DNA of 64,000 bases from assembly GCA_029269725.1 (NCBI GenBank), contig JARJHS010000001.1:434001-498000 (forward strand), given 5' to 3'. Each line of letters opens with the position of its first letter. The stretch's first letter is position 1. Positions 14,997-28,680 of the stretch are shown here, piece after piece. A model generated the notes under the pieces. It saw only the letters and a program-made list of their open reading frames with translations. It made no database searches and was not told the DNA's origin. This DNA comes from Pollutibacter soli (GTDB lineage Bacteria > Bacteroidota > Bacteroidia > Chitinophagales > Chitinophagaceae). Position numbers and translations under genes: made by a program.

Positions 14997-15506
14997 TTAC
15001 TTTTCTTTTTTTGTATTTGCATTCTCTGGCATCCAGAAAATATCCGGCCAATCAGCGTCAGGATCACTGTTGCATTTATGGGCACCAGGTGAATTGATTT
15101 CATAATTAATATCTGGTAATACCGTTTGTATTGCCTCAAATAATTCCCGTTCTTCGAAACGAATATGAAGTTTTAATGCATCCGCAAATGCGGCGAGCAA
15201 TATCCTGTTGGATTTATTTTGACGAATATTTTCAATAAGGTAAGTCAGGCGTGTATGATCATTTTCCGCCTGTAGCCTAAGTAAATTATCTACTGGTAAT
15301 AATGGAAAAAGATCTGACTCTTCTTCGCTGAAATGTTTCTTCAGGTCGTGATCAAAAAAAAATACAGCATAATTAGCGATCCGCTCCGGATCGATGGCAT
15401 TGGCCAGGCCCTGTTTTATTTTCCAAACCAGTAATAATCCATAATGATGGTCACGGGAAAATTCTACAAGAGCCTGGTGCCTTTTAAGTGGGAGACGGTC
15501 TTTCAT
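14997..15506 (-). CDS. Hemerythrin-like (HHE) domain protein
   Basis: 169 aa with the HHE cation-binding pattern. His/Glu ligands are likely in RHQALVEFSRDHHYGLLL, in FFDHDLKKHFSEEESDLFP and in LKLHIRFEERELFE. It would hold a di-iron centre that binds O2 or NO or helps repair iron centres. Its ATG overlaps the TGA of the ScdA-like gene by four bases, so translation is coupled. The N-terminal half resembles the regulatory hemerythrins found beside Rrf2 genes in this phylum. Confidence 0.85.
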   Translation of the reverse strand: MKDRLPLKRHQALVEFSRDHHYGLLLVWKIKQGLANAIDPERIANYAVFFFDHDLKKHFSEEESDLFPLLPVDNLLRLQAENDHTRLTYLIENIRQNKSNRILLAAFADALKLHIRFEERELFEAIQTVLPDINYEINSPGAHKCNSDPDADWPDIFWMPENANTKKEK

Positions 15507-16456
15507 GAATAGGATTCTTTTTCGAGGGCAATTGCTTTCGGGAACAGGATATTATTTTCAAGGTGAACATGGATATGCAGATCATTTTCGAATTCCTCCA
15601 GAATTCTATATAGTACACTGAAACTAGCGCATGCTCCCTCTGGCAAAGTGTAATTGCTAGTCAGTGCCCTGATTTCACTTAATGCTTCGCCGGCAGATTC
15701 GTGTTCTTTTTCCATTACACTGATAGGATTTTCAACAGAACCAAATGGGCCTCTTACAATTTTGTTTTCACCGGCAGTTACCAATTCCTTTATATATGGG
15801 AAAAGAACAGTTTCTTCTTTCATCATATGCGACAATAGCTCTTCGTTTACCATTTCTACAAGGTCATAAACTCTTTGCAATTCCGGATGTTCTTCGCCAT
15901 GTTTTCTTGCAACTTTCGAAATATACATTCGTAATTCCGGCAACGTGTTTCGAACATAGCGATGATGTGTATTGATAATAAAATCCACAAGGAAATCTGC
16001 TTTCCATTGGTTATAGGGTAGTGAACTGACCTGCGATATCTCAGATGTCTGCGTCAGATCCCGTTCAACCTGTACCACATCAATTCCTTTTTCCATGCAT
16101 GCTTCTTTCACCGTCTTTCTTCCGCCGCAACAAAAGTCGAGTCCATATTTTTTGAATATTCTTACTTTGGCCAGGTCTTTTGCTGCTATTTCCCCGATGG
16201 TCTCATCGCGTTCATCAGCATTTTTCTTGCCTATAATTACCTTCCACGATTCGGGTCCTTCTTCCAGATAGTTCCATGTAAAAATATTTCCTTGTCTTCC
16301 CAGCAACTGGTAATAAAGAGGTTTCGGATCGTGGTCATTGTGAATGGTAAAACTTTCTCCTTCTTTCAAATCATCAAAACGTTGAAAAATGGCAGGATGT
16401 TTTTGACCTGCAGGTAATGTCGTAACATTAAGTATCTGTTCGTTTTCGGTAATCAT
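15503..16456 (-). CDS. Iron-sulphur repair di-iron protein (ScdA/YtfE/Ric) with DUF2249 head
   Basis: 317 aa in three parts. Residues 5-80 are a DUF2249 domain (FQRFDDLKEGESFTIHNDHD). Residues 85-140 are the ScdA N-terminal domain with the paired Cys of GLDFCCGGRKTVKEACMEKG. The rest is a hemerythrin domain with HHRYVRNTLPEL, HGEEHPELQRV, HMMKEETVLFPYI, EHESAGEAL and HVHLENNILFP. YtfE/Ric proteins repair iron-sulphur and mononuclear iron sites after nitric-oxide damage. The added DUF2249 head is a fusion. I chose ATG 16456; the frame also opens at TTG 16483. It is divergent from osmC. Confidence 0.9.
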   Translation of the reverse strand: MITENEQILNVTTLPAGQKHPAIFQRFDDLKEGESFTIHNDHDPKPLYYQLLGRQGNIFTWNYLEEGPESWKVIIGKKNADERDETIGEIAAKDLAKVRIFKKYGLDFCCGGRKTVKEACMEKGIDVVQVERDLTQTSEISQVSSLPYNQWKADFLVDFIINTHHRYVRNTLPELRMYISKVARKHGEEHPELQRVYDLVEMVNEELLSHMMKEETVLFPYIKELVTAGENKIVRGPFGSVENPISVMEKEHESAGEALSEIRALTSNYTLPEGACASFSVLYRILEEFENDLHIHVHLENNILFPKAIALEKESYS

Positions 16457-16537
16457 ATTGAATAGTTTTTCGATCTTGTACAAAGCTAGATAATAAAAGT
16501 ATTTAAATGCTTTTAATAAAAGGGAATTTTGACTTCC

Positions 16538-16549
16538 TGATCAAAATCA
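16538..16549 (-). promoter_or_regulatory. FNR/DNR-like palindrome in the scdA-osmC spacer
   Basis: TGAT-CAAA-ATCA, a perfect TGAT-N4-ATCA box. The surrounding 16 bases CTGATCAAAATCATCC recur exactly, in reverse orientation, at 28169-28184 in front of the Rrf2/nos genes. For the ScdA-like gene I could not find a TAnnTTTG at the standard distance; TACTTTTA at 16501-16494 is the nearest. Confidence 0.5.
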
Positions 16550-16569: not shown

Positions 16570-16612
16570 TGATCAAGGTCAGCATCATAACGAAAGTCAA
16601 CCGCCAATTTTG
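16570..16612 (+). promoter_or_regulatory. Candidate FNR/DNR-type promoter of the osmC gene
   Basis: Box TGAT-CAAG-GTCA at 16570-16581 (one base off TGAT-N4-ATCA) and a -7-like CAATTTTG at 16605-16612 (one base off TAnnTTTG). The distance from box centre to the last G is 36.5 bp, the same as for the two promoters at 27906 and 28214. This puts the box near -42, where class II activators bind. Confidence 0.5.
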
Positions 16613-16629
16613 CAGCAACGACCTTTATT

Positions 16630-17106
16630 ATGGCACATCATGAAATTGAAACTACCTGGAAAGGAAAGATGCAGTTCAATGCGGACGTGAATGGACATAC
16701 TATTGTTATGGATGCACCAGCAAGAGTGGGAGGAGAGGATAAAGGACCAATTCCCAAGCCCTTTATTTTGACAGCCCTTTCCGGATGTACCGGAATGGAT
16801 GTTGTCGCGCTTTTGCGTAAGTCCGGAATTTTTTTATCGGATTTTCAAATGAAAGTCAGGGGAGAGCTCAGCAAGCAACAACCGCTGGAGTATGTCGCTA
16901 TTCACATGATATATTCCTTATCCGGAGATCCCGGGCATCAACAGGATGTTTTGAATGCAATAACTGATTCCCAGGAAAAAATATGTGGTGTAAGTCATAT
17001 GCTGAAAAAAGCAATGCCTGTTACCTGGGAAATAATTTATAACCAGGAGATAATATTTCCTAATCATTCCGCTGAACGGAAATCAGTTGCGGGAATCTGG
17101 CACTAA
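16630..17106 (+). CDS. OsmC family protein
   Basis: 158 aa of the OsmC/Ohr superfamily, thiol-dependent peroxide reductases. The first Cys is in LTALSGCTGMDVVALLRK and the second in SQEKICGVSHMLKKAMPV, the usual two-Cys pair. Length is slightly above the 140 aa norm because of a short C-terminal tail. Divergent from the ScdA-like gene across a spacer carrying two FNR-like boxes, so it probably belongs to the same stress response. Its substrate could be organic hydroperoxide or persulphide. Confidence 0.85.
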   Translation: MAHHEIETTWKGKMQFNADVNGHTIVMDAPARVGGEDKGPIPKPFILTALSGCTGMDVVALLRKSGIFLSDFQMKVRGELSKQQPLEYVAIHMIYSLSGDPGHQQDVLNAITDSQEKICGVSHMLKKAMPVTWEIIYNQEIIFPNHSAERKSVAGIWH

Positions 17107-21400: not shown

Positions 21401-22168
21401 CTAAAGATCCTTGTTTTTAAAAATCTTTGCGGCCGCAAACATAGGTAATATGATCCACAAGAACATAATTCCAACAGTAAAAAGAATTCCGTTGCCGCTT
21501 CCGAAAAACTCTTTATACAACGCTCCGGTATATCCCATCAACGCACTGACATCCATTTGCAGCATGATAAAAATCCGGCCAAGATCTATTGGATTAAATG
21601 CAGACAGCACAAGAGTTAGTTTTTCGGTGGGGTAGTCACTGAAACTAAAAAGTATCAGTAACACTAAACCATCATATATCAGGGCAAAATAAAACCAAAG
21701 CAATAAAGCCATTCCTATGCCTCTGGCTTTATCTCTGGATTTTACTGAAGCAAGAAAAGCCAGTGAAGTAAATATCAGGGTCAATGCAACTCCGGCAAGA
21801 AGAAGCGAAATTCCTATTGAATTGAATGAAAAGAACAAAACAGGAACTCCTACACCGATTAAAAATCCGCTGATGAGCGATAAAGAAACACCTGTGAACT
21901 CACTTAATAAAATCCTGGTTCTGCTCAAAGGCTGAGACAACATCAGTTCAATAAATTCGTAGGAATTGTAATAGTGAATAGTCGTAAATATCATGCTTAT
22001 CAATGGCACGACGATTAATACAATATTCAGCAAACTCAACACTGCCTTACTTTGATTTTCTTCCAGCTGGAAAAAACCGAATGATACTACGAACAGAAAC
22101 AATGTATACGCGATGACGATTTTGCTTCGTAAAATGTCATACAATACATATCGGGTGAGCTTGAGCAT
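21401..22168 (-). CDS. nosY: NosY-like ABC transporter permease
   Basis: 255 aa with six hydrophobic segments, an ABC-2 type permease. With NosF and NosD it forms the NosDFY complex, which supplies sulphur or energised maturation to the CuZ site of N2O reductase. Its motif FIELMLSQPLSRTRIL is typical of the ABC-2/NosY coupling region. It follows nosF by 40 bp in the operon. Assignment rests on gene order plus fold, since the family is divergent. Confidence 0.85.
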   Translation of the reverse strand: MLKLTRYVLYDILRSKIVIAYTLFLFVVSFGFFQLEENQSKAVLSLLNIVLIVVPLISMIFTTIHYYNSYEFIELMLSQPLSRTRILLSEFTGVSLSLISGFLIGVGVPVLFFSFNSIGISLLLAGVALTLIFTSLAFLASVKSRDKARGIGMALLLWFYFALIYDGLVLLILFSFSDYPTEKLTLVLSAFNPIDLGRIFIMLQMDVSALMGYTGALYKEFFGSGNGILFTVGIMFLWIILPMFAAAKIFKNKDL

Positions 22169-22208: not shown

Positions 22209-22967
22209 TCAATCGGAAGATTTCATTGCCAGCACTTCATCGATCCAGAGCGAATTCTTTTTATTGTCTCTCATGACGCGGGCGATCACTTTGCCCAGTT
22301 TATCTTCTCCTGTTTCCTGTCGGAGTGCGTTGATGTCTTTCAGAAAAACCATGCGGCCTTCCTGCAGGTACATTACATCCGTGGTAAGTTCATCCAGATC
22401 ACTCAGGATATGTGATGTGATAAGAATCAGTTTGTTTTTTTTCTTTTCCTGCATGATTTTTTCTTTCAGAATTTCTGATGAAAGCGGATCAAGGCCCGCC
22501 GTGGGTTCATCAAGGATCAGTATTGCGGGATTGAAATAGAATGCAAGTGCAGCACTTACTTTCTGCCTTGTTCCTCCACTTAATGTGCGCATAGGTTTTT
22601 CGAAGATGGACATCAGGTTGAATTTTACGAGAAGGTCAGCATCTACATCTGACTCTGATAATTTCCTGATATCTCTCATCATCCTGAACAGGTGACCAAT
22701 CTGCATATTATCCGGGTACCTTCCGATCTGGGGCATATATCCAATCTGGCTGCGGTAGGAAGGATCACCATTGATCTGTTTTCCGTTGATGAAAATATTC
22801 CCACTATCTGCTTTAACCAGACCAAGTATGGATTTGATCAACGTCGTTTTACCGGAACCGTTAGGCCCGATCAGGGAAATCACCTGGCCACGATTGAAGA
22901 TTGCACTGATATCATTCAGCGCCTGGAGCTTTTTGAATTTCTTATTAATATTTTCAATCCTGATCAT
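22209..22967 (-). CDS. nosF: NosF-like ABC transporter ATPase
   Basis: 252 aa. Walker A GPNGSGKTT, signature LSGGTRQKV and Walker B ILILDEPTAG are intact, followed by the switch His in ITSHIL. It powers the NosDFY maturation complex. The ATG overlaps the nosD stop by four bases (ATGA), so the two are translated together. Confidence 0.9.
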   Translation of the reverse strand: MIRIENINKKFKKLQALNDISAIFNRGQVISLIGPNGSGKTTLIKSILGLVKADSGNIFINGKQINGDPSYRSQIGYMPQIGRYPDNMQIGHLFRMMRDIRKLSESDVDADLLVKFNLMSIFEKPMRTLSGGTRQKVSAALAFYFNPAILILDEPTAGLDPLSSEILKEKIMQEKKKNKLILITSHILSDLDELTTDVMYLQEGRMVFLKDINALRQETGEDKLGKVIARVMRDNKKNSLWIDEVLAMKSSD

Positions 22968-24196
22968 AACTTATTAGGTTTTATCACAGGCGCATTGTCC
23001 GCCAGGTGTTCCGGAGTCAGGCTGGGCATGGCTTTTTCTGCTTTGTCCAGCAGTGTGACCATGAAACTTCTCATTAATATCAATGTTGAAGGGCTTTGCT
23101 CTACCACCATCGCGTACATACTGACCGGGTGATAAGGAACATCACCAGTGCCATCTTTGTTGAGATCATATCCTTCATATTTATCCCAGTAGTTGCCTCT
23201 AAATCTGTTCAGCGCCATAGTCCCGTTAGTGGCTACGTCGAAAGAGTTTCCGTAGAAATTGTTATTGAAAAAACTGTTATCATCGCAACTGGCCTGTACT
23301 TTCAGCGCCCATCCATTTGATTCAAAAACATTTTTCCCTATCTCAATGCGACTGCTTCCTTCCATGTGAATGCCGACTGTATTCTGAACGAAGCGATTGT
23401 TCAGGATATGGCTGTTGCTGATGTCTTTCAGTAAAATTCCATAAGCGCTAGCACCCCAGTTTTTGTGAAAGAAGTTGTTTTCCATTCGCACTTCTTTACT
23501 ATACATCACCGCAACTCCAGCACCGTTATTTTCAAATGTATTTCCGAGGTAAGCATCGTTGTTGGAAAACATAAAATGAAGGCCATATCTCACATTTTTT
23601 TTGCTCTGATTGTTTTTGATTGTCGATGCAGTGACAAATTCGAAATAAATGCCATCCCTATGACCGCTTATAGAATTTGATTCCACCAGCATCTGATCAC
23701 ATTTCCAGAGATGAATTCCATTGCCTGAAAGATGTTCGGATTTATTTGTGCCAACAATTTGATTATTTCTTATGACGGAATTAATGGTATTGGCCATATG
23801 CACTCCGAACGATGCATTGGTAATTATATTCTTTTCGATTAAAATTCCTGTTGCATCAATTACTTTAATTGCAGCATAGTCATTCATGGAAGAATAGCCC
23901 GCATTTGCAAACTGAATTCCGGTGATAACTATATTTTTCCCGGTGAGTGTTAGAATTTCATTTTTATTCTCACCATCAAGAATCGGATTGCCGATACCGA
24001 ATAGGAAAACAGGTTTACTGATCAGGATATTTCCTTCTTTATAGATGCCCTTTTGAAGCAATATAGTATCTCCGGCATTGGCAATCTGTATTGCCTGGCG
24101 AAGAGTAGTAATCGGGGCATTTTTCCCAACTGTGATTGTGTTTCCGCTCGCCTGTGCGAAAAGGCAAATATTCAATATGATCAGCGGCCATTTCAT
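22964..24196 (-). CDS. nosD: NosD, periplasmic copper-maturation beta-helix
   Basis: 410 aa. A signal peptide (cleavage near QASG) is followed by a right-handed parallel beta-helix with NosD/CASH repeats: turns such as IEKNIITNASFGVHMAN, VIRNNQIVGTN, LVESNSISGHRDGIY and HILNNRFVQNTVGIHMEGS. The motif FRGNYWDKYEGYDLNKDGTG near the C-terminus is characteristic of NosD. It delivers what the CuZ cluster needs and acts with NosF and NosY. The C-terminal helix (LILMRSFMVTLLDKA) can contact the permease. Overlaps the NosL gene by four bases. Confidence 0.92.
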   Translation of the reverse strand: MKWPLIILNICLFAQASGNTITVGKNAPITTLRQAIQIANAGDTILLQKGIYKEGNILISKPVFLFGIGNPILDGENKNEILTLTGKNIVITGIQFANAGYSSMNDYAAIKVIDATGILIEKNIITNASFGVHMANTINSVIRNNQIVGTNKSEHLSGNGIHLWKCDQMLVESNSISGHRDGIYFEFVTASTIKNNQSKKNVRYGLHFMFSNNDAYLGNTFENNGAGVAVMYSKEVRMENNFFHKNWGASAYGILLKDISNSHILNNRFVQNTVGIHMEGSSRIEIGKNVFESNGWALKVQASCDDNSFFNNNFYGNSFDVATNGTMALNRFRGNYWDKYEGYDLNKDGTGDVPYHPVSMYAMVVEQSPSTLILMRSFMVTLLDKAEKAMPSLTPEHLADNAPVIKPNKL

Positions 24197-25233
24197 TTCA
24201 CCAGTATATTATAAAGAGTGGCCCAGTTGGTTTGTTTACTGCCTTCAATTTCTTCGGCTTTCTTCTTTGCTTCTGCAGCATTTTTGAAAGCTGCAGCATT
24301 TCCTCCCATCGGACTTTTTAATTGACTGCTCACAACAAACTCTGCAGAGGATACTGTAATAAATCCAGCATTGTTGTTATAGTCAACGAATAATGTCTGG
24401 TGTATCTCGTTCATTTCAACACTGCGTCTTTGCATAAATGTTGCAAGACAATGGACATCATCGAACTTGAAAATCCTGCCCTTCCTGGTGACTATTTCAG
24501 CACCGAATTTAGGGTCCATGATGGTCATCCTGCATTCAGCACAATTGTCTTTTCCCAGGTTTATTTTTTCAGGTTTTGGATTACAACCGGAAATAAAGAA
24601 GCATGCTATTGCGGCAACTGCGACACTAGCGCTTTTAATGGACCTCGTCATTGATTGTCGTTTTTTGTTTTTTCGCCATTCGAAAAACCAGGTGATAAAG
24701 AAAATACCTGTCACTGCCAATATAATCCAGCCGCCGGTATCGGGATAGGAGTAGGAATCAAAATTGAGCAGCTTCTTATGGCCGAGCAATGGAGGTTGGT
24801 AGGAAAGGCCAGGAACTTTGATCGCAGCTGCGGGATCAAGATTATGTCCATAATCGTAGCCCCACAGGTAAAAATCTATCAGCGCTGCGATGCCTGCAAA
24901 CATCGCAGTAACGAGGTATGTAATCAGGAGTTTTCGGCTACCGGTAAACGATATGATCAATCCAAACAGGATAAAGAATCCCAGAATGTAAATGAGGTAC
25001 GAAAATTCAGGAAACATTTCTTCCCTGATATGTTTCATGCCGATGTAGTGGTTGAGTCCGTTGATGATGTCCACCTGTCCTGATAACTTATTCAGCCAGA
25101 TCTGCATGGATAGTCCTTCAGGGTATTGCGGCGCGATCAGATAAATAGACCAGACCGGAACAAAGAACAATACGGACATGACCAGTGAGCCAACTGCTAT
25201 AATCATGCGTGAAGCTGTACTCATCTTTTTCAT
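24193..25233 (-). CDS. nosL: Membrane protein fused to NosL copper chaperone
   Basis: 346 aa in one frame. Residues 1-190 form a membrane protein with about four or five helices, starting MKKMSTASRMIIAVGSLVM. From an internal Met (ATG at 24651) the sequence reads MTRSIKSASVAVAAIACFF and then ISGC, a complete lipoprotein signal. NosL follows with KDNCAECRMTIMDPKFG and the Cys in FDDVHCLATFM. NosL is a Cu(I) lipoprotein that loads NosZ. The two parts are usually separate adjacent genes. Here they are fused, or a second start at 24651 makes free NosL of 152 aa. I chose ATG 25233. Confidence 0.85.
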   Translation of the reverse strand: MKKMSTASRMIIAVGSLVMSVLFFVPVWSIYLIAPQYPEGLSMQIWLNKLSGQVDIINGLNHYIGMKHIREEMFPEFSYLIYILGFFILFGLIISFTGSRKLLITYLVTAMFAGIAALIDFYLWGYDYGHNLDPAAAIKVPGLSYQPPLLGHKKLLNFDSYSYPDTGGWIILAVTGIFFITWFFEWRKNKKRQSMTRSIKSASVAVAAIACFFISGCNPKPEKINLGKDNCAECRMTIMDPKFGAEIVTRKGRIFKFDDVHCLATFMQRRSVEMNEIHQTLFVDYNNNAGFITVSSAEFVVSSQLKSPMGGNAAAFKNAAEAKKKAEEIEGSKQTNWATLYNILVK

Positions 25234-25272
25234 AATCCTGGTTTCAAAACATTTCATGTGGAAGAAAATAGA

Positions 25273-25299
25273 CAAGGCGCATGCGCTTCATGCGCCTTG
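25273..25299 (-). terminator. Stable hairpin after nosZ
   Basis: Perfect 11-bp stem CAAGGCGCATG / CATGCGCCTTG with a 5-nt loop, 11 bp after the nosZ stop. No T-run follows, so it is more likely to protect the nosZ 3' end or partly attenuate reading into nosL than to stop transcription. Confidence 0.6.
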
Positions 25300-25309
25300 T
25301 TGGAGCCAT

Positions 25310-27340
25310 TTATTTTGCTGGTGGCGCTTTTGAAGTTTCAGCGGCCGGCGCTCCTTCTGCTGATACAGCAGGTTTATTTGTACCGGTACTAAAGAGTAAA
25401 GCAACATTTGAATTCGCAGGTGATACCCTGAGATAACCTTGCATTTCCTGGTGCAGTGCAGAACAGAAATCTGTACAATAGAAAGGAAATATTCCGGTTC
25501 TGTCTGCAACCCATTTCAATGTTTGTGTTTCACCAGGCATGATCAGTATCTCTGCATTGTTCGCACCTTTGATGGCAAAACCATGTGGTACATCCCAGTC
25601 CTGCTCGAGGTTGGTGACATGGAAATAAACTTCGTCGCCCAGTTTCACGCCTTCAATATTGTCAGGAGTAAGATGCGAACGTATGGCTGTCATCCACACG
25701 TGAACCTGGTTGCCTTTTCGTTCTACTTTCGATTGACCTTCGCCTTTAGAAACGAATGCATGTGAATTCTCTTCGATCCTGAAGATTTTTCGTTGTTTGT
25801 CTTTTATCAGGGTTGCTGGTAATGCCTCAGCATAATGCGGTTCGCCTGTAGTAGGGAAGTCAAGAATGAGTTTCATTTTATCTCCACTGATATCATACAA
25901 CTGCGCACTCTGAGTCAGTTCAGGTCCTGTCGGCAGATAACGGTCTTTTGTGATCTTGTTATAGGCGATCATGTATTTCCCATGAGGTTTCGCAGTTGGT
26001 CCGCCAGGTATCGACAAGTGACCGACAGAATAATACGTTGGTACACGATCAAGTACCTGCAGGTCCTTCAGGCTCCATTTCACGATTTCAGAAGACACAA
26101 ACATGGAAGTGTATGCATTACCTTTTCCATCGAACTCTGTGTGCAAAGGGCCGAGACCAGGTTTTGTTACTTCACCCTGCAAAGCAGCTTCGTATTTGAT
26201 AACAGGTATTCCGTCGTAGTCGCCATCGAATGCTTTATCGTCAATTGCTTTCTGAATTTTCGCAAAAGAGAAAACAGGGATGCTCGCTGCCAGTTTTCCT
26301 GACGCAACAATGTATTCGCCGGAAGGATCAACATCTGTTCCGTGAGGAGATTTTGGACAGGGAATAAGGAACAACATCCCGGGGCAATCAGCAGGATCAA
26401 GAACAAAAACATCAGTTTTCATGGAAGTGGTGGCTGCATGTGTTTTTTCATCATACATATTATGAGCATACTTCACAGTTTGTTTTTTTGCTTTGCCAGC
26501 TTTCAGATATTCTTCTGCCTTTTTCCAGTTCACTGCCATTACAAAATCTTTGTCCCTTTGTGAAGCATTCTGTTCGAGCAATGTGTTGGCTTTTTCAGAA
26601 TTATAACAGCTGAAGAAAAACCATCCGTTGGATTTGCCCTTACCAGCTCTTGATAAGTCGAAGTTGACTCCCGGGGTACGGATCTGGAAGGCAATGTTCA
26701 TTTCACCTGTTGTTGGGTTTACTGATACAAAGCTGATGGATCCTTTAAAATTCTGTTTGTAGGTATTAATAGGAACATCACCGTTCTGATCATCGAGCGG
26801 TACACTGAAGCGTGTAGCAGCAACAACGTATTCAGAGTTTTCGGTGATAAAAGGAGAAGCGTGGTTGCCTGCGCTGTTAGGGATCTCCAGGATTTCCGCC
26901 GTACGGAACGTGCTGAGGTCGATTCTTGCGAGACGGGGCGTGTTATTTCCATTCGCAAAAGCCCAACGGCCATCATGTTCGCCTTTTGTTTGAGAAAGAG
27001 CGATGTGATGAAGATCATCCCATGGAACAAAACCGTGTGATGTATTAAGCATGGGTTTTGTTTCTTCACTGAATCCATAACCGCTTTCTGCTGATTGAGA
27101 AAATACCGGTACTATCCGGAACAATCTGCCGGAAGGGATTCCGTATATCCCGATCTGGCCGTTGAAACCTCCGGAAACAACGTTGTAGAATTCATCGTGT
27201 TGACCCGGAGCAATAAATGATTTGGTGGCGTCACCTACAGCGGCCGATTGAGCAGTTTTGGGTTTACAACTGTTGATTGATAGAAGGCAAAAGAAGCCCA
27301 GTATCAAAACCGCGGAGGTTTTGAAGTGATGAAATTTCAT
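25310..27340 (-). CDS. nosZ: Nitrous-oxide reductase, clade II type
   Basis: 676 aa. Reduces N2O to N2 in the periplasm. The leader MKFHHFKTSAVLILGFFC is followed by a lipobox-like INSC, so export is by Sec and not Tat, the mark of clade II NosZ. The seven-bladed propeller shows CuZ-site His motifs (HHIALSQTKGEHDGRW, PHGTDVDPSGEYIV, GPLHTEFDGKGNAYTSM, PTAKPHGKYMI). The CuA domain at the C-terminus has DWDVPHGFAI and CTDFCSALHQEM (Cys622, Cys626, His630, Met633). A 30-residue Ala/Pro/Lys tail follows and is unusual. First large gene after cytochrome c in the operon. Confidence 0.96.
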   Translation of the reverse strand: MKFHHFKTSAVLILGFFCLLSINSCKPKTAQSAAVGDATKSFIAPGQHDEFYNVVSGGFNGQIGIYGIPSGRLFRIVPVFSQSAESGYGFSEETKPMLNTSHGFVPWDDLHHIALSQTKGEHDGRWAFANGNNTPRLARIDLSTFRTAEILEIPNSAGNHASPFITENSEYVVAATRFSVPLDDQNGDVPINTYKQNFKGSISFVSVNPTTGEMNIAFQIRTPGVNFDLSRAGKGKSNGWFFFSCYNSEKANTLLEQNASQRDKDFVMAVNWKKAEEYLKAGKAKKQTVKYAHNMYDEKTHAATTSMKTDVFVLDPADCPGMLFLIPCPKSPHGTDVDPSGEYIVASGKLAASIPVFSFAKIQKAIDDKAFDGDYDGIPVIKYEAALQGEVTKPGLGPLHTEFDGKGNAYTSMFVSSEIVKWSLKDLQVLDRVPTYYSVGHLSIPGGPTAKPHGKYMIAYNKITKDRYLPTGPELTQSAQLYDISGDKMKLILDFPTTGEPHYAEALPATLIKDKQRKIFRIEENSHAFVSKGEGQSKVERKGNQVHVWMTAIRSHLTPDNIEGVKLGDEVYFHVTNLEQDWDVPHGFAIKGANNAEILIMPGETQTLKWVADRTGIFPFYCTDFCSALHQEMQGYLRVSPANSNVALLFSTGTNKPAVSAEGAPAAETSKAPPAK

Positions 27341-27377: not shown

Positions 27378-27854
27378 TTATTGTATCCCATCATTAGATC
27401 GCATAAATTCGAGGATATGCCTCGACTCGTCTTTTGATATATTCTGGTTAGGCATACGGACAAGACATTGCTCGAGTAATTTCTGAGCTTCAGGATCTTT
27501 TTCGAGCATCATATCCACATTGGTGATCATGTTCATGATCCACTCAGGCTGTCTTCTTTTAGTTACATCTTTCCAACCAGGTCCAACCAGTCTCTCATCA
27601 GTAAGCTTATGACAGGATTGACATTTTAATTCGTAAATGCCTTTACCAGCGGTTACCCATTGCTGATTTAATGGCGTGGTCAATTCAATATCTCCCGCTT
27701 TCATTTCTGTTCCGTGCACTTCCGCCTGATCAGCTGGCTTATCCTGCGCTTCGGAAGATTTTTCTTCCCCGGACTTCCCTTCATTGTTACATGATCCTAA
27801 AAACAAAATTGCTCCGACTAAGCATACAGTAGTCAATCGTAAATGGAGTTTCAT
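27378..27854 (-). CDS. Lipoprotein cytochrome c of the nos operon
   Basis: 158 aa. Lipobox FLGSC (Cys22), then a disordered acidic linker and one class I cytochrome c domain with haem motif CQSCH (78-82) and likely axial Met134 in LVRMPNQN. It is the first gene of the operon, 37 bp before nosZ, and probably hands electrons to the CuA site. Such a gene is common at this position in clade II nos clusters. Confidence 0.9.
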   Translation of the reverse strand: MKLHLRLTTVCLVGAILFLGSCNNEGKSGEEKSSEAQDKPADQAEVHGTEMKAGDIELTTPLNQQWVTAGKGIYELKCQSCHKLTDERLVGPGWKDVTKRRQPEWIMNMITNVDMMLEKDPEAQKLLEQCLVRMPNQNISKDESRHILEFMRSNDGIQ

Positions 27855-27905
27855 TGTGATGAATTGAAGGTGAAATCATAAAAGACATATATATCTCTTA
27901 TGAAA

Positions 27906-27948
27906 CAAAAATATTTTTCATGACTAATTTAACAACTGATCCGTATCA
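27906..27948 (-). promoter_or_regulatory. nos operon promoter with FNR/DNR-like box
   Basis: On the minus strand the -7 element TATTTTTG lies at 27913-27906 (perfect TAnnTTTG). Upstream is the perfect box TGAT-ACGG-ATCA at 27948-27937. Centre to last G is 36.5 bp, which places the box near -42 from a start predicted at about 27900. The leader would be about 46 nt before ATG 27854. Confidence 0.65.
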
Positions 27949-27964
27949 ACCGTGCACATGATAA

Positions 27965-27976
27965 TGATCAATGTCA
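27965..27976 (+). promoter_or_regulatory. Additional FNR-like half-conserved box
   Basis: TGAT-CAAT-GTCA, one base off the palindrome, 28 bp from the box of the nos promoter. It could be a second regulator site for the nos side. TATTTTTG on the plus strand at 27980-27987 also matches a -7 element but is 250 bp from a gene. Confidence 0.35.
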
Positions 27977-28129
27977 TATTATTTTTGGAATGAACCTGAA
28001 TAAAGCCAGATATCATATAATATAGATCATGTTTTTTAATGTACATATTACACATCCCAACACTTCATTCTTCTTTTTGTATACTCCCCTTTGATGGATC
28101 TTTAAACAAAAAGATTACCGTGCCTTTTC

Positions 28130-28141
28130 CGATCAGGATCA
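28130..28141 (+). promoter_or_regulatory. Additional FNR-like box
   Basis: CGAT-CAGG-ATCA, one base off TGAT-N4-ATCA, 42 bp before the box of the Rrf2 promoter. A function is possible only in combination with the neighbouring boxes. Confidence 0.35.
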
Positions 28142-28171
28142 TTTACAACTGATGAACATTAATCGGTGGGA

Positions 28172-28214
28172 TGATTTTGATCAGATGGAAAAAACTGTCC
28201 CGGTTATAGGTTTG
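28172..28214 (+). promoter_or_regulatory. Promoter of the Rrf2 gene with FNR/DNR-like box
   Basis: Box TGAT-TTTG-ATCA at 28172-28183 and -7 element TAGGTTTG at 28207-28214 (perfect TAnnTTTG). Centre to last G is again 36.5 bp. The start is predicted near 28220 and the leader is about 20 nt. The box core and flanks are identical to the site at 16538-16549 read in reverse. Confidence 0.65.
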
Positions 28215-28239
28215 GCGTTCTGAATCTATTCAAGCGTTT

Positions 28240-28680
28240 ATGATATTTTCAAAATCATCGGGCTATGCTATCCGGGCGATTCTATACCTGGCCCTGATCA
28301 ACAATGAAAAATCGAAAGTTCGTGTGGACGACATTTCCCGGGAACTGATGGTCCCTAAACATTTTCTGAGCAAGGTGCTGAAGAAACTTGTAAAAAAAGG
28401 AGTTCTTGATTCCACAAAGGGTCCTTATGGTGGTTTCTCTTTAAATAAGGAAACCTTGTCCATCACCCTGTTTGATCTGGTTGCGTTAACCAATGGCGAA
28501 CTTCAGTTTGATAATTGTGTCCTTCGCCTTAAAAAATGCAATCCCAGTCACCCATGTCCTTTACATGAAAAAATGGTTTCATTTAAACAGGATTTACAGC
28601 GGACTTTGATGAATACCAGTATCGGGGATCTACTAAACCCGGAGCAACCGGAGTTTATCAAAAGTATTGCGACTATTTAA
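28240..28680 (+). CDS. Rrf2 family regulator beside the nos operon
   Basis: 146-aa Rrf2 repressor. Recognition helix region: LMVPKHFLSKVLKKLVKKGV, then DSTKGPYGGFSL. The cluster-binding Cys motif is NCVLRLKKCNPSHPCPLH, so NO or oxygen sensing is likely. It is divergent from the nos operon, and both promoters carry FNR-like boxes. It is a paralogue of the regulator at 14473. Whether it controls nos, itself, or both cannot be read here. Confidence 0.88.
   Translation: MIFSKSSGYAIRAILYLALINNEKSKVRVDDISRELMVPKHFLSKVLKKLVKKGVLDSTKGPYGGFSLNKETLSITLFDLVALTNGELQFDNCVLRLKKCNPSHPCPLHEKMVSFKQDLQRTLMNTSIGDLLNPEQPEFIKSIATI

Follow-up and report, generated by a model that had tools for sequence, protein, structure and literature searches.

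Tandem Crp/Fnr-type boxes at divergent nos and rrf2 promoters point to a candidate REC-CRP regulator in Chitinophagaceae

The divergent promoters of a clade II nitrous-oxide reductase (nos) cluster and of an rrf2 gene share a module of two TGAY-N4-RTCA boxes 22 bp apart, followed after 23 bp by a TAnnTTTG element, and the same module stands in front of respiration and stress genes elsewhere in the host genome and in many relatives. With a probability of roughly two in three, a FixL-type kinase acts on a receiver–Crp/Fnr fusion protein (REC-CRP), and this fusion protein in turn switches on nos, rrf2 and microaerobic genes through the tandem boxes; binding, activation, phosphorylation and haem-based oxygen sensing are predicted steps of this reading. 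Clade II N2O reducers act as a greenhouse-gas sink, and many of them are Bacteroidota; a study of marine sediments calls regulation outside the Proteobacteria poorly known (PMC6264515). Because the site, the promoter layout with its fixed distances and a two-gene candidate can all be named, the question is directly testable, and any related genome can be scanned for the module as a marker of the regulon.

The divergent nos and rrf2 promoters

Within the window, i.e. the whole 64-kb stretch of DNA that was analysed, a 385-bp gap between the nos cluster (minus strand) and rrf2 (plus strand) contains divergent promoters with two boxes each (Table 1). A sequence-only reading of this DNA had placed one TGAT-N4-ATCA box at each promoter, and both are indeed present (TGATCCGTATCA at 27937-27948 and TGATTTTGATCA at 28172-28183), with centres 36.5 bp from the last G of an exact TAnnTTTG element, equivalent to a 23-bp gap between box and element at both promoters. 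It had also counted two more one-off boxes, which was right as to the existence of further boxes and wrong as to their number and quality: the box at 27959-27970 is perfect, and the one-off boxes number more than two. TAnnTTTG has been mapped to -12 to -5 in Flavobacterium psychrophilum (PMC9723704), and the box centres are therefore assigned to -41.5. A Crp/Fnr-type palindrome (TGA-N6-TCA) centred at about -41.5 from the predicted start of transcription agrees with the class II position that had been proposed for both transcripts.

Pairs of boxes 22 bp apart with at most one mismatch per box occur only twice in the 64-kb window (27937/27959 and 28150/28172); both proximal boxes thus have a partner, giving two boxes per promoter at -63.5 and -41.5. 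The exact TGAT-N4-ATCA sequence is found eight times in the window against an expectation of 2.77, and three of the eight copies lie in the 385-bp gap. From this arrangement we infer that the twin promoters are activated by a Crp/Fnr-type protein bound at -41.5.

Table 1. Boxes, promoter elements and flanking genes of the nos–rrf2 region (window coordinates)
Feature	Sequence	Position	Strand	Remarks
Distal box, nos promoter	TGATCATTATCA	27959..27970	-	0 mismatches; centre about -63.5; 22 bp from proximal box
Proximal box, nos promoter	TGATACGGATCA	27937..27948	-	centre about -41.5
-7 element, nos promoter	TATTTTTG	27906..27913	-	predicted start of transcription near 27901
Distal box, rrf2 promoter	TGATGAACATTA	28150..28161	+	one mismatch; centre about -63.5
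Proximal box, rrf2 promoter	TGATTTTGATCA	28172..28183	+	centre about -41.5
-7 element, rrf2 promoter	TAGGTTTG	28207..28214	+	predicted start of transcription near 28219
c-type cytochrome, first gene of the nos cluster		27378..27854	-	PF00034
nosZ, Sec-dependent (clade II) nitrous-oxide reductase		25310..27340	-	TIGR04246, 928 bits versus cut-off 625
NosL domain, C-terminal end of a 360-aa membrane protein		24193..25275	-	PF05573 at 242-346
nosD		22964..24196	-	TIGR04247
nosF-type ABC ATPase		22209..22967	-	name nosF rests on position
nosY-type ABC permease		21401..22168	-	PF12679; name nosY rests on position
Rrf2-family regulator		28240..28680	+	TIGR00738, 103.9 bits versus cut-off 73.3; C-x6-C-x5-C

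The closest named relatives of the NosZ protein come from Terrimonas pollutisoli (90%) and then from other Chitinophagaceae. In the 360-aa protein encoded at 24193-25275 only the last third is NosL domain, while the first part belongs to no family. The Rrf2 protein of the window scores below the cut-offs of the NsrR, IscR and RirA models (40.9 bits versus 182 for NsrR), and its C-x6-C-x5-C motif recurs in 23 listed Rrf2 proteins that are divergent to nos; it is a member of the Rrf2 superfamily with three conserved cysteines and a predicted Fe-S binder. The sequence-only reading had proposed Rrf2 as a second layer of control, which is a possible role; an operator for it was sought by dyad enrichment, which yielded no clear Rrf2-specific dyad and no definable Rrf2 site. 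At a separate place in the window, a gene for a DUF2249-like plus ScdA/RIC-like protein (15503-16483, minus strand) is divergent to an OsmC gene (16630-17106, plus strand); the gap between them carries boxes at 16538-16549 and 16570-16581, 32 bp apart, the second lying 23 bp before CAATTTTG. DUF2249 and RIC genes also adjoin nos in relatives.

The module in the host genome and across the family

Searched with at most three mismatches, the full module gives 28 matches (22 separate sites) in the host genome and none with the reversed pattern, a control that preserves letters and not dinucleotides. The sequence-only reading had called for a genome scan of such box–promoter pairs, and the outcome bears it out: the module occurs above chance (28 versus 0) and precedes genes for the cbb3 oxidase, RIC, a HemG-like protein and universal-stress proteins. 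The paired palindromes are symmetric, so that among the six sites matched in both directions some of the second matches may be mirror effects. Most matches (23/28) fall outside any ORF of at least 70 aa; the remaining five overlap an over-long start or ORFs that measure 74-116 aa.

Modules with no mismatch precede nos and a DUF6544 gene, those with one mismatch rrf2, a universal-stress gene and the gene for a 165-aa protein. Two-mismatch modules are found before ccoNO, ccoI and the genes for a HemG-like flavodoxin, a thioredoxin-like protein and an erythromycin-esterase-family protein, among others, and three-mismatch modules before RIC, a CHAD protein, DUF6064, an HlyD-type protein and others. 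Several targets have no known oxygen link, and four of the 18 scanned ones have no Pfam family, or only families of unknown function beyond those already named; such targets, lacking a family or an evident connection with oxygen, count against a purely respiratory regulon. An exact single box followed after 18 to 28 bp by TAnnTTTG occurs four times in the genome and not once as the reversed pattern, against a total of 357 boxes in 6.1 Mb. The tandem module was used in the scans because the single box with one mismatch is less clean, with 34 matches versus 14 in the control and many of them inside ORFs.

For the nos promoter itself, 110 loci (30 + 80, partly from the matches listed) were reduced to 96, the window's own included, by removing seven with too little upstream DNA and seven near-duplicates; boxes were allowed one mismatch to TGAY-N4-RTCA, and locus L036 was left out of the box survey of the nos gaps. 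Towards nos, the gap between box and TAnnTTTG is 23 bp in 39 of the 96 loci and 24 bp in seven, with no other length in more than two apart from a second peak at 45 bp (37 loci), which represents the tandem partner. The same two lengths recur on the side of the divergent gene (23 bp in 22 loci and 45 bp in 19 of the 96). A partner box lies exactly 22 bp upstream in 35 of the 39 loci with a gap of 23. Sorted by the neighbour of nos, the module is present in 22/26 loci with Rrf2, 4/4 with RIC, 2/2 with DUF2249, 7/33 with other neighbours and 0/31 with a 198-aa Crp/Fnr protein. In compact relatives with a divergent gap of about 160-200 bp one box pair serves both promoters, whereas in the window, with its 385 bp, each promoter has its own pair.

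In a set of 61 sites the base before TGAY-N4-RTCA is A in 24, T in 23, C in nine and G in five, and the base before TAnnTTTG is A in 49. The spacer between box and TAnnTTTG contains no conserved TTG in these 61 sites, which argues that the promoters have no -33 element.

As a separate observation, a 198-aa Crp/Fnr protein (helix RVETVIR) beside nos takes the place of the tandem layout in L037, L076, L107, L121 and 27 further loci, most of which have a single ATGAY-N4-RTCAT box. At L136 the gene divergent to nos, 207 bp upstream of the cytochrome c gene, encodes an orthologue (69%) of L008, a Crp-type protein of the host.

Across the family the module is found with at most two mismatches in 343 of 394 genomes, adding up to 2764 matches (a total transcribed by hand) versus four control matches (read from a table), and an exact single box with the 23-bp spacing occurs in 332 of the 394. 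That one layout recurs in many relatives in front of genes for stress and for respiration at low oxygen points to one shared low-oxygen switch. Two genomes of the G097 group, G327 and G351, have 59 and 61 modules, compared with a median of seven.

REC-CRP and its FixL-like partner kinase

Five proteins of the host genome exceed the cut-off for the Crp-type helix-turn-helix PF13545. One of them (L005, encoded at L175:9978-11033) combines a receiver (PF00072), a cNMP-binding domain (PF00027) and PF13545 in a single protein of 352 aa, and this REC-CRP is, by the criteria of sequence and genome context below, most likely the best candidate for the activator of the module promoters. Its gene is located on another contig than nos, in keeping with the earlier proposal of a regulator encoded elsewhere; it follows the gene of a PAS kinase and has ccoNO, ccoP, ccoG, ccoI and RIC as neighbours. 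Modules precede ccoNO, ccoI/RIC and the HemG-like gene. Several named relatives carry the kinase and REC-CRP pair 2-4 kb from nos. Among the best 60 solved chains none covers both halves of REC-CRP.

A genome was scored as lacking REC-CRP if none of five candidates per genome gave a match at 1e-60. By this measure the 282 of 394 genomes with a match have a median of seven modules, and only three of the 282 have none, versus a median of one module in the 112 genomes without a match, of which 48 have none and 28 at least three. The difference persists at finer resolution: of the 38 genera with both kinds of genome, 33 show a higher module density with REC-CRP and five a lower one, and among genomes of 3-5 Mb the median is eight modules with REC-CRP (155 genomes) and 1.5 without (64). 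The association is one with the kind of protein, because the match set takes in both REC-CRP types of the host, L005 and L007, whose partner kinases differ in their PAS domains. Among the matches listed, 104 genomes have REC-CRP, 149 nosZ and 73 both; in 27 of these 73 the REC-CRP gene and nosZ are no more than 20 kb apart, with about 0.6 expected. REC-CRP is not linked to nos in the other 46, and the host's own REC-CRP is far from nos.

The partner kinase consists of PAS, HisKA and HATPase domains, and the best solved match of its PAS domain is FixL of S. meliloti (1d06, 5.3e-15), followed by further FixL and DosP chains. The proximal haem histidine and the distal arginine have established roles in FixL-type PAS domains; both are aligned to FixL in the partner kinase and are kept in six of six kinases that were found by this motif. 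The FixL motif was not found in the kinase that accompanies L007, the second REC-CRP, nor in L092, where the ORF next to REC-CRP differs at its N-terminus. Judged by sequence criteria the partner kinase of L005 is FixL-like, with haem and O2 binding as predicted properties, and low oxygen is the likely signal on account of this FixL-like haem PAS domain. Only two COX1-family proteins, one of them the cbb3 oxidase, were found in the genome, and no additional NorB-type protein was seen, which weakens the case for NO as the signal; as far as this family goes, the result fits an N2O reducer that may be ruled by oxygen rather than NO. In F. psychrophilum the cbb3 oxidase is raised at low oxygen (PMC9723704).

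The proposed mechanism would operate as follows. At low oxygen, the FixL-like haem PAS kinase would phosphorylate REC-CRP, and the phosphorylated protein would bind as one dimer at -41.5 (class II) and a second at -63.5, further upstream by two turns of the helix. The two dimers, on one face of the helix, would recruit polymerase to a sigma-A promoter that has no -33 element, and nos, rrf2, cbb3, RIC, HemG-like and stress genes would rise together. Such a scheme would amount to FixL–FixJ–FixK with FixJ and FixK merged in one protein. We also lean, though less firmly, towards a broader reading in which FixL and REC-CRP form a general low-oxygen switch of the Chitinophagaceae, perhaps of the wider Bacteroidota: its two-dimer promoter would drive the clade II N2O reductase, the cbb3 oxidase, the repair of iron centres and a set of stress genes reminiscent of dormancy; in compact relatives the two divergent promoters would share one symmetric site pair; and nos would have escaped where a dedicated 198-aa Crp/Fnr regulator took over.

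One 115-kb contig of the host genome (G000:C6) has seven tandem sites around the second REC-CRP, L007, which comes with its own kinase. The loci concerned (L179, L217, L218, L221-L223 and L236-L238) include universal-stress, HSP20-like, BON-like and erythromycin-esterase genes, and the contig looks like a dormancy or hypoxia island.

Known systems and alternative explanations

The closest parallel is the FixLJ–FixK2 cascade of Bradyrhizobium diazoefficiens, in which nosRZDYFLX is a FixK2 target activated from -40.5 (PMC5582078). Both systems would have a low-oxygen haem kinase at the head, a Crp/Fnr protein at about -40.5/-41.5 and cbb3 and nos as targets; in B. diazoefficiens, however, FixJ is a protein distinct from FixK2, and the box TTG(A/C)-N6-(T/G)CAA is a single site (PMC5582078). 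Here, in contrast, receiver and Crp/Fnr domains are fused, two TGAY-N4-RTCA boxes follow each other at a distance of 22 bp, the promoter belongs to the TAnnTTTG type of the Bacteroidota and nosZ to clade II. FixJ–FixK proper implies a separate FixJ (receiver plus LuxR-type HTH) and a separate FixK, which the fused 352-aa protein is not; cbb3 genes as targets, the mark of a FixK regulon, are seen in the modules before ccoNO and ccoI with two mismatches each. Tandem sites are familiar from the class III promoters of E. coli CRP and FNR, where one dimer binds at -41.5 and one upstream on the same face. Unlike there, the partner in our case is at -63.5, 22 bp away, and is common to both divergent promoters in compact relatives. 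That rrf2 can adjoin clade II nosZ has been published before: marine sediment scaffolds carry Rrf2 or NnrR-like genes next to clade II nosZ, in a neighbourhood of c-type cytochrome, rrf2 or Crp/Fnr gene and nosZ like the one in the window (PMC6264515). That source, in its available portion, gives gene order alone, without boxes, promoters or regulator (PMC6264515). A search of open-licence papers, subscription papers being outside its scope, found no description of the tandem-box layout or of REC-CRP in Bacteroidota.

The alternative with most weight, if still an unlikely one, accepts the tandem boxes as real and makes another Crp/Fnr protein the main activator of nos, be it L007, L006 beside cobA or a short Crp, with REC-CRP as a mere correlate. 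The five PF13545 proteins offer the necessary choice, 28 of the 112 genomes without a REC-CRP match nevertheless have at least three modules, L007 itself sits on a contig with several modules, and the 198-aa Crp/Fnr protein that adjoins nos in many relatives is accompanied by a box that does not show the 23-bp spacing. Against this, all 31 loci with the 198-aa regulator are devoid of the N23 layout, and both the association within genera and the linkage to nosZ favour REC-CRP. Classical FNR/DNR control, by the FNR-like L009 or by a DNR-like NO sensor acting on TTGAT-N4-ATCAA, is improbable by comparison. The FNR/DNR box is TTGATnnnnATCAA (TTGAT-N4-ATCAA; PMC1274295), and its regulons resemble the present case in the Crp/Fnr-type palindrome, the class II position and the denitrification genes under control (PMC1274295). 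The core TGAT-N4-ATCA fits, and the host does encode L009. We take this protein to be FNR-like from its N-terminal CxxCx4C motif and EQVSR helix, and a weak association of its family with the module exists inside the genomes without REC-CRP (p 0.009). The initial T is, however, not conserved before TGAY (23/61 sites), the favoured candidate differs from FNR and DNR by its receiver domain, and module density over the 394 genomes is associated neither with L009 orthologues (p 0.16) nor with the L009 family (p 0.14); nor does the COX1 inventory, two proteins without a NorB type, speak for NO. The FNR/DNR-like label of the sequence-only reading consequently did not survive the base count before TGAY and the missing association of the FNR-like protein. 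The identity of the box as FNR/DNR was dropped for the unconserved T in the 61 sites, and L009 as regulator of the module for the lack of an overall association with module density.

That the boxes are instead operators of Rrf2, which would regulate its own gene and repress nos, is more improbable still. Rrf2 is divergent to nos in 26 of the 96 loci and 22 of these have the module, but the module is also found beside RIC, DUF2249 and other neighbours in the proportions given above, it precedes ccoNO, ccoI/RIC and stress genes that lie at a distance from rrf2, and no Rrf2-specific dyad stood out. Chance or base composition, finally, is hardly credible as an explanation. AT-rich gaps could yield boxes and TAnnTTTG by accident, and the 357 boxes in 6.1 Mb as well as the 34 versus 14 matches of the one-mismatch single box lend this idea some substance; it is refuted by one dominant gap length in 96 loci, by 28 versus 0 modules in the genome and by their presence in 343 of 394 genomes.
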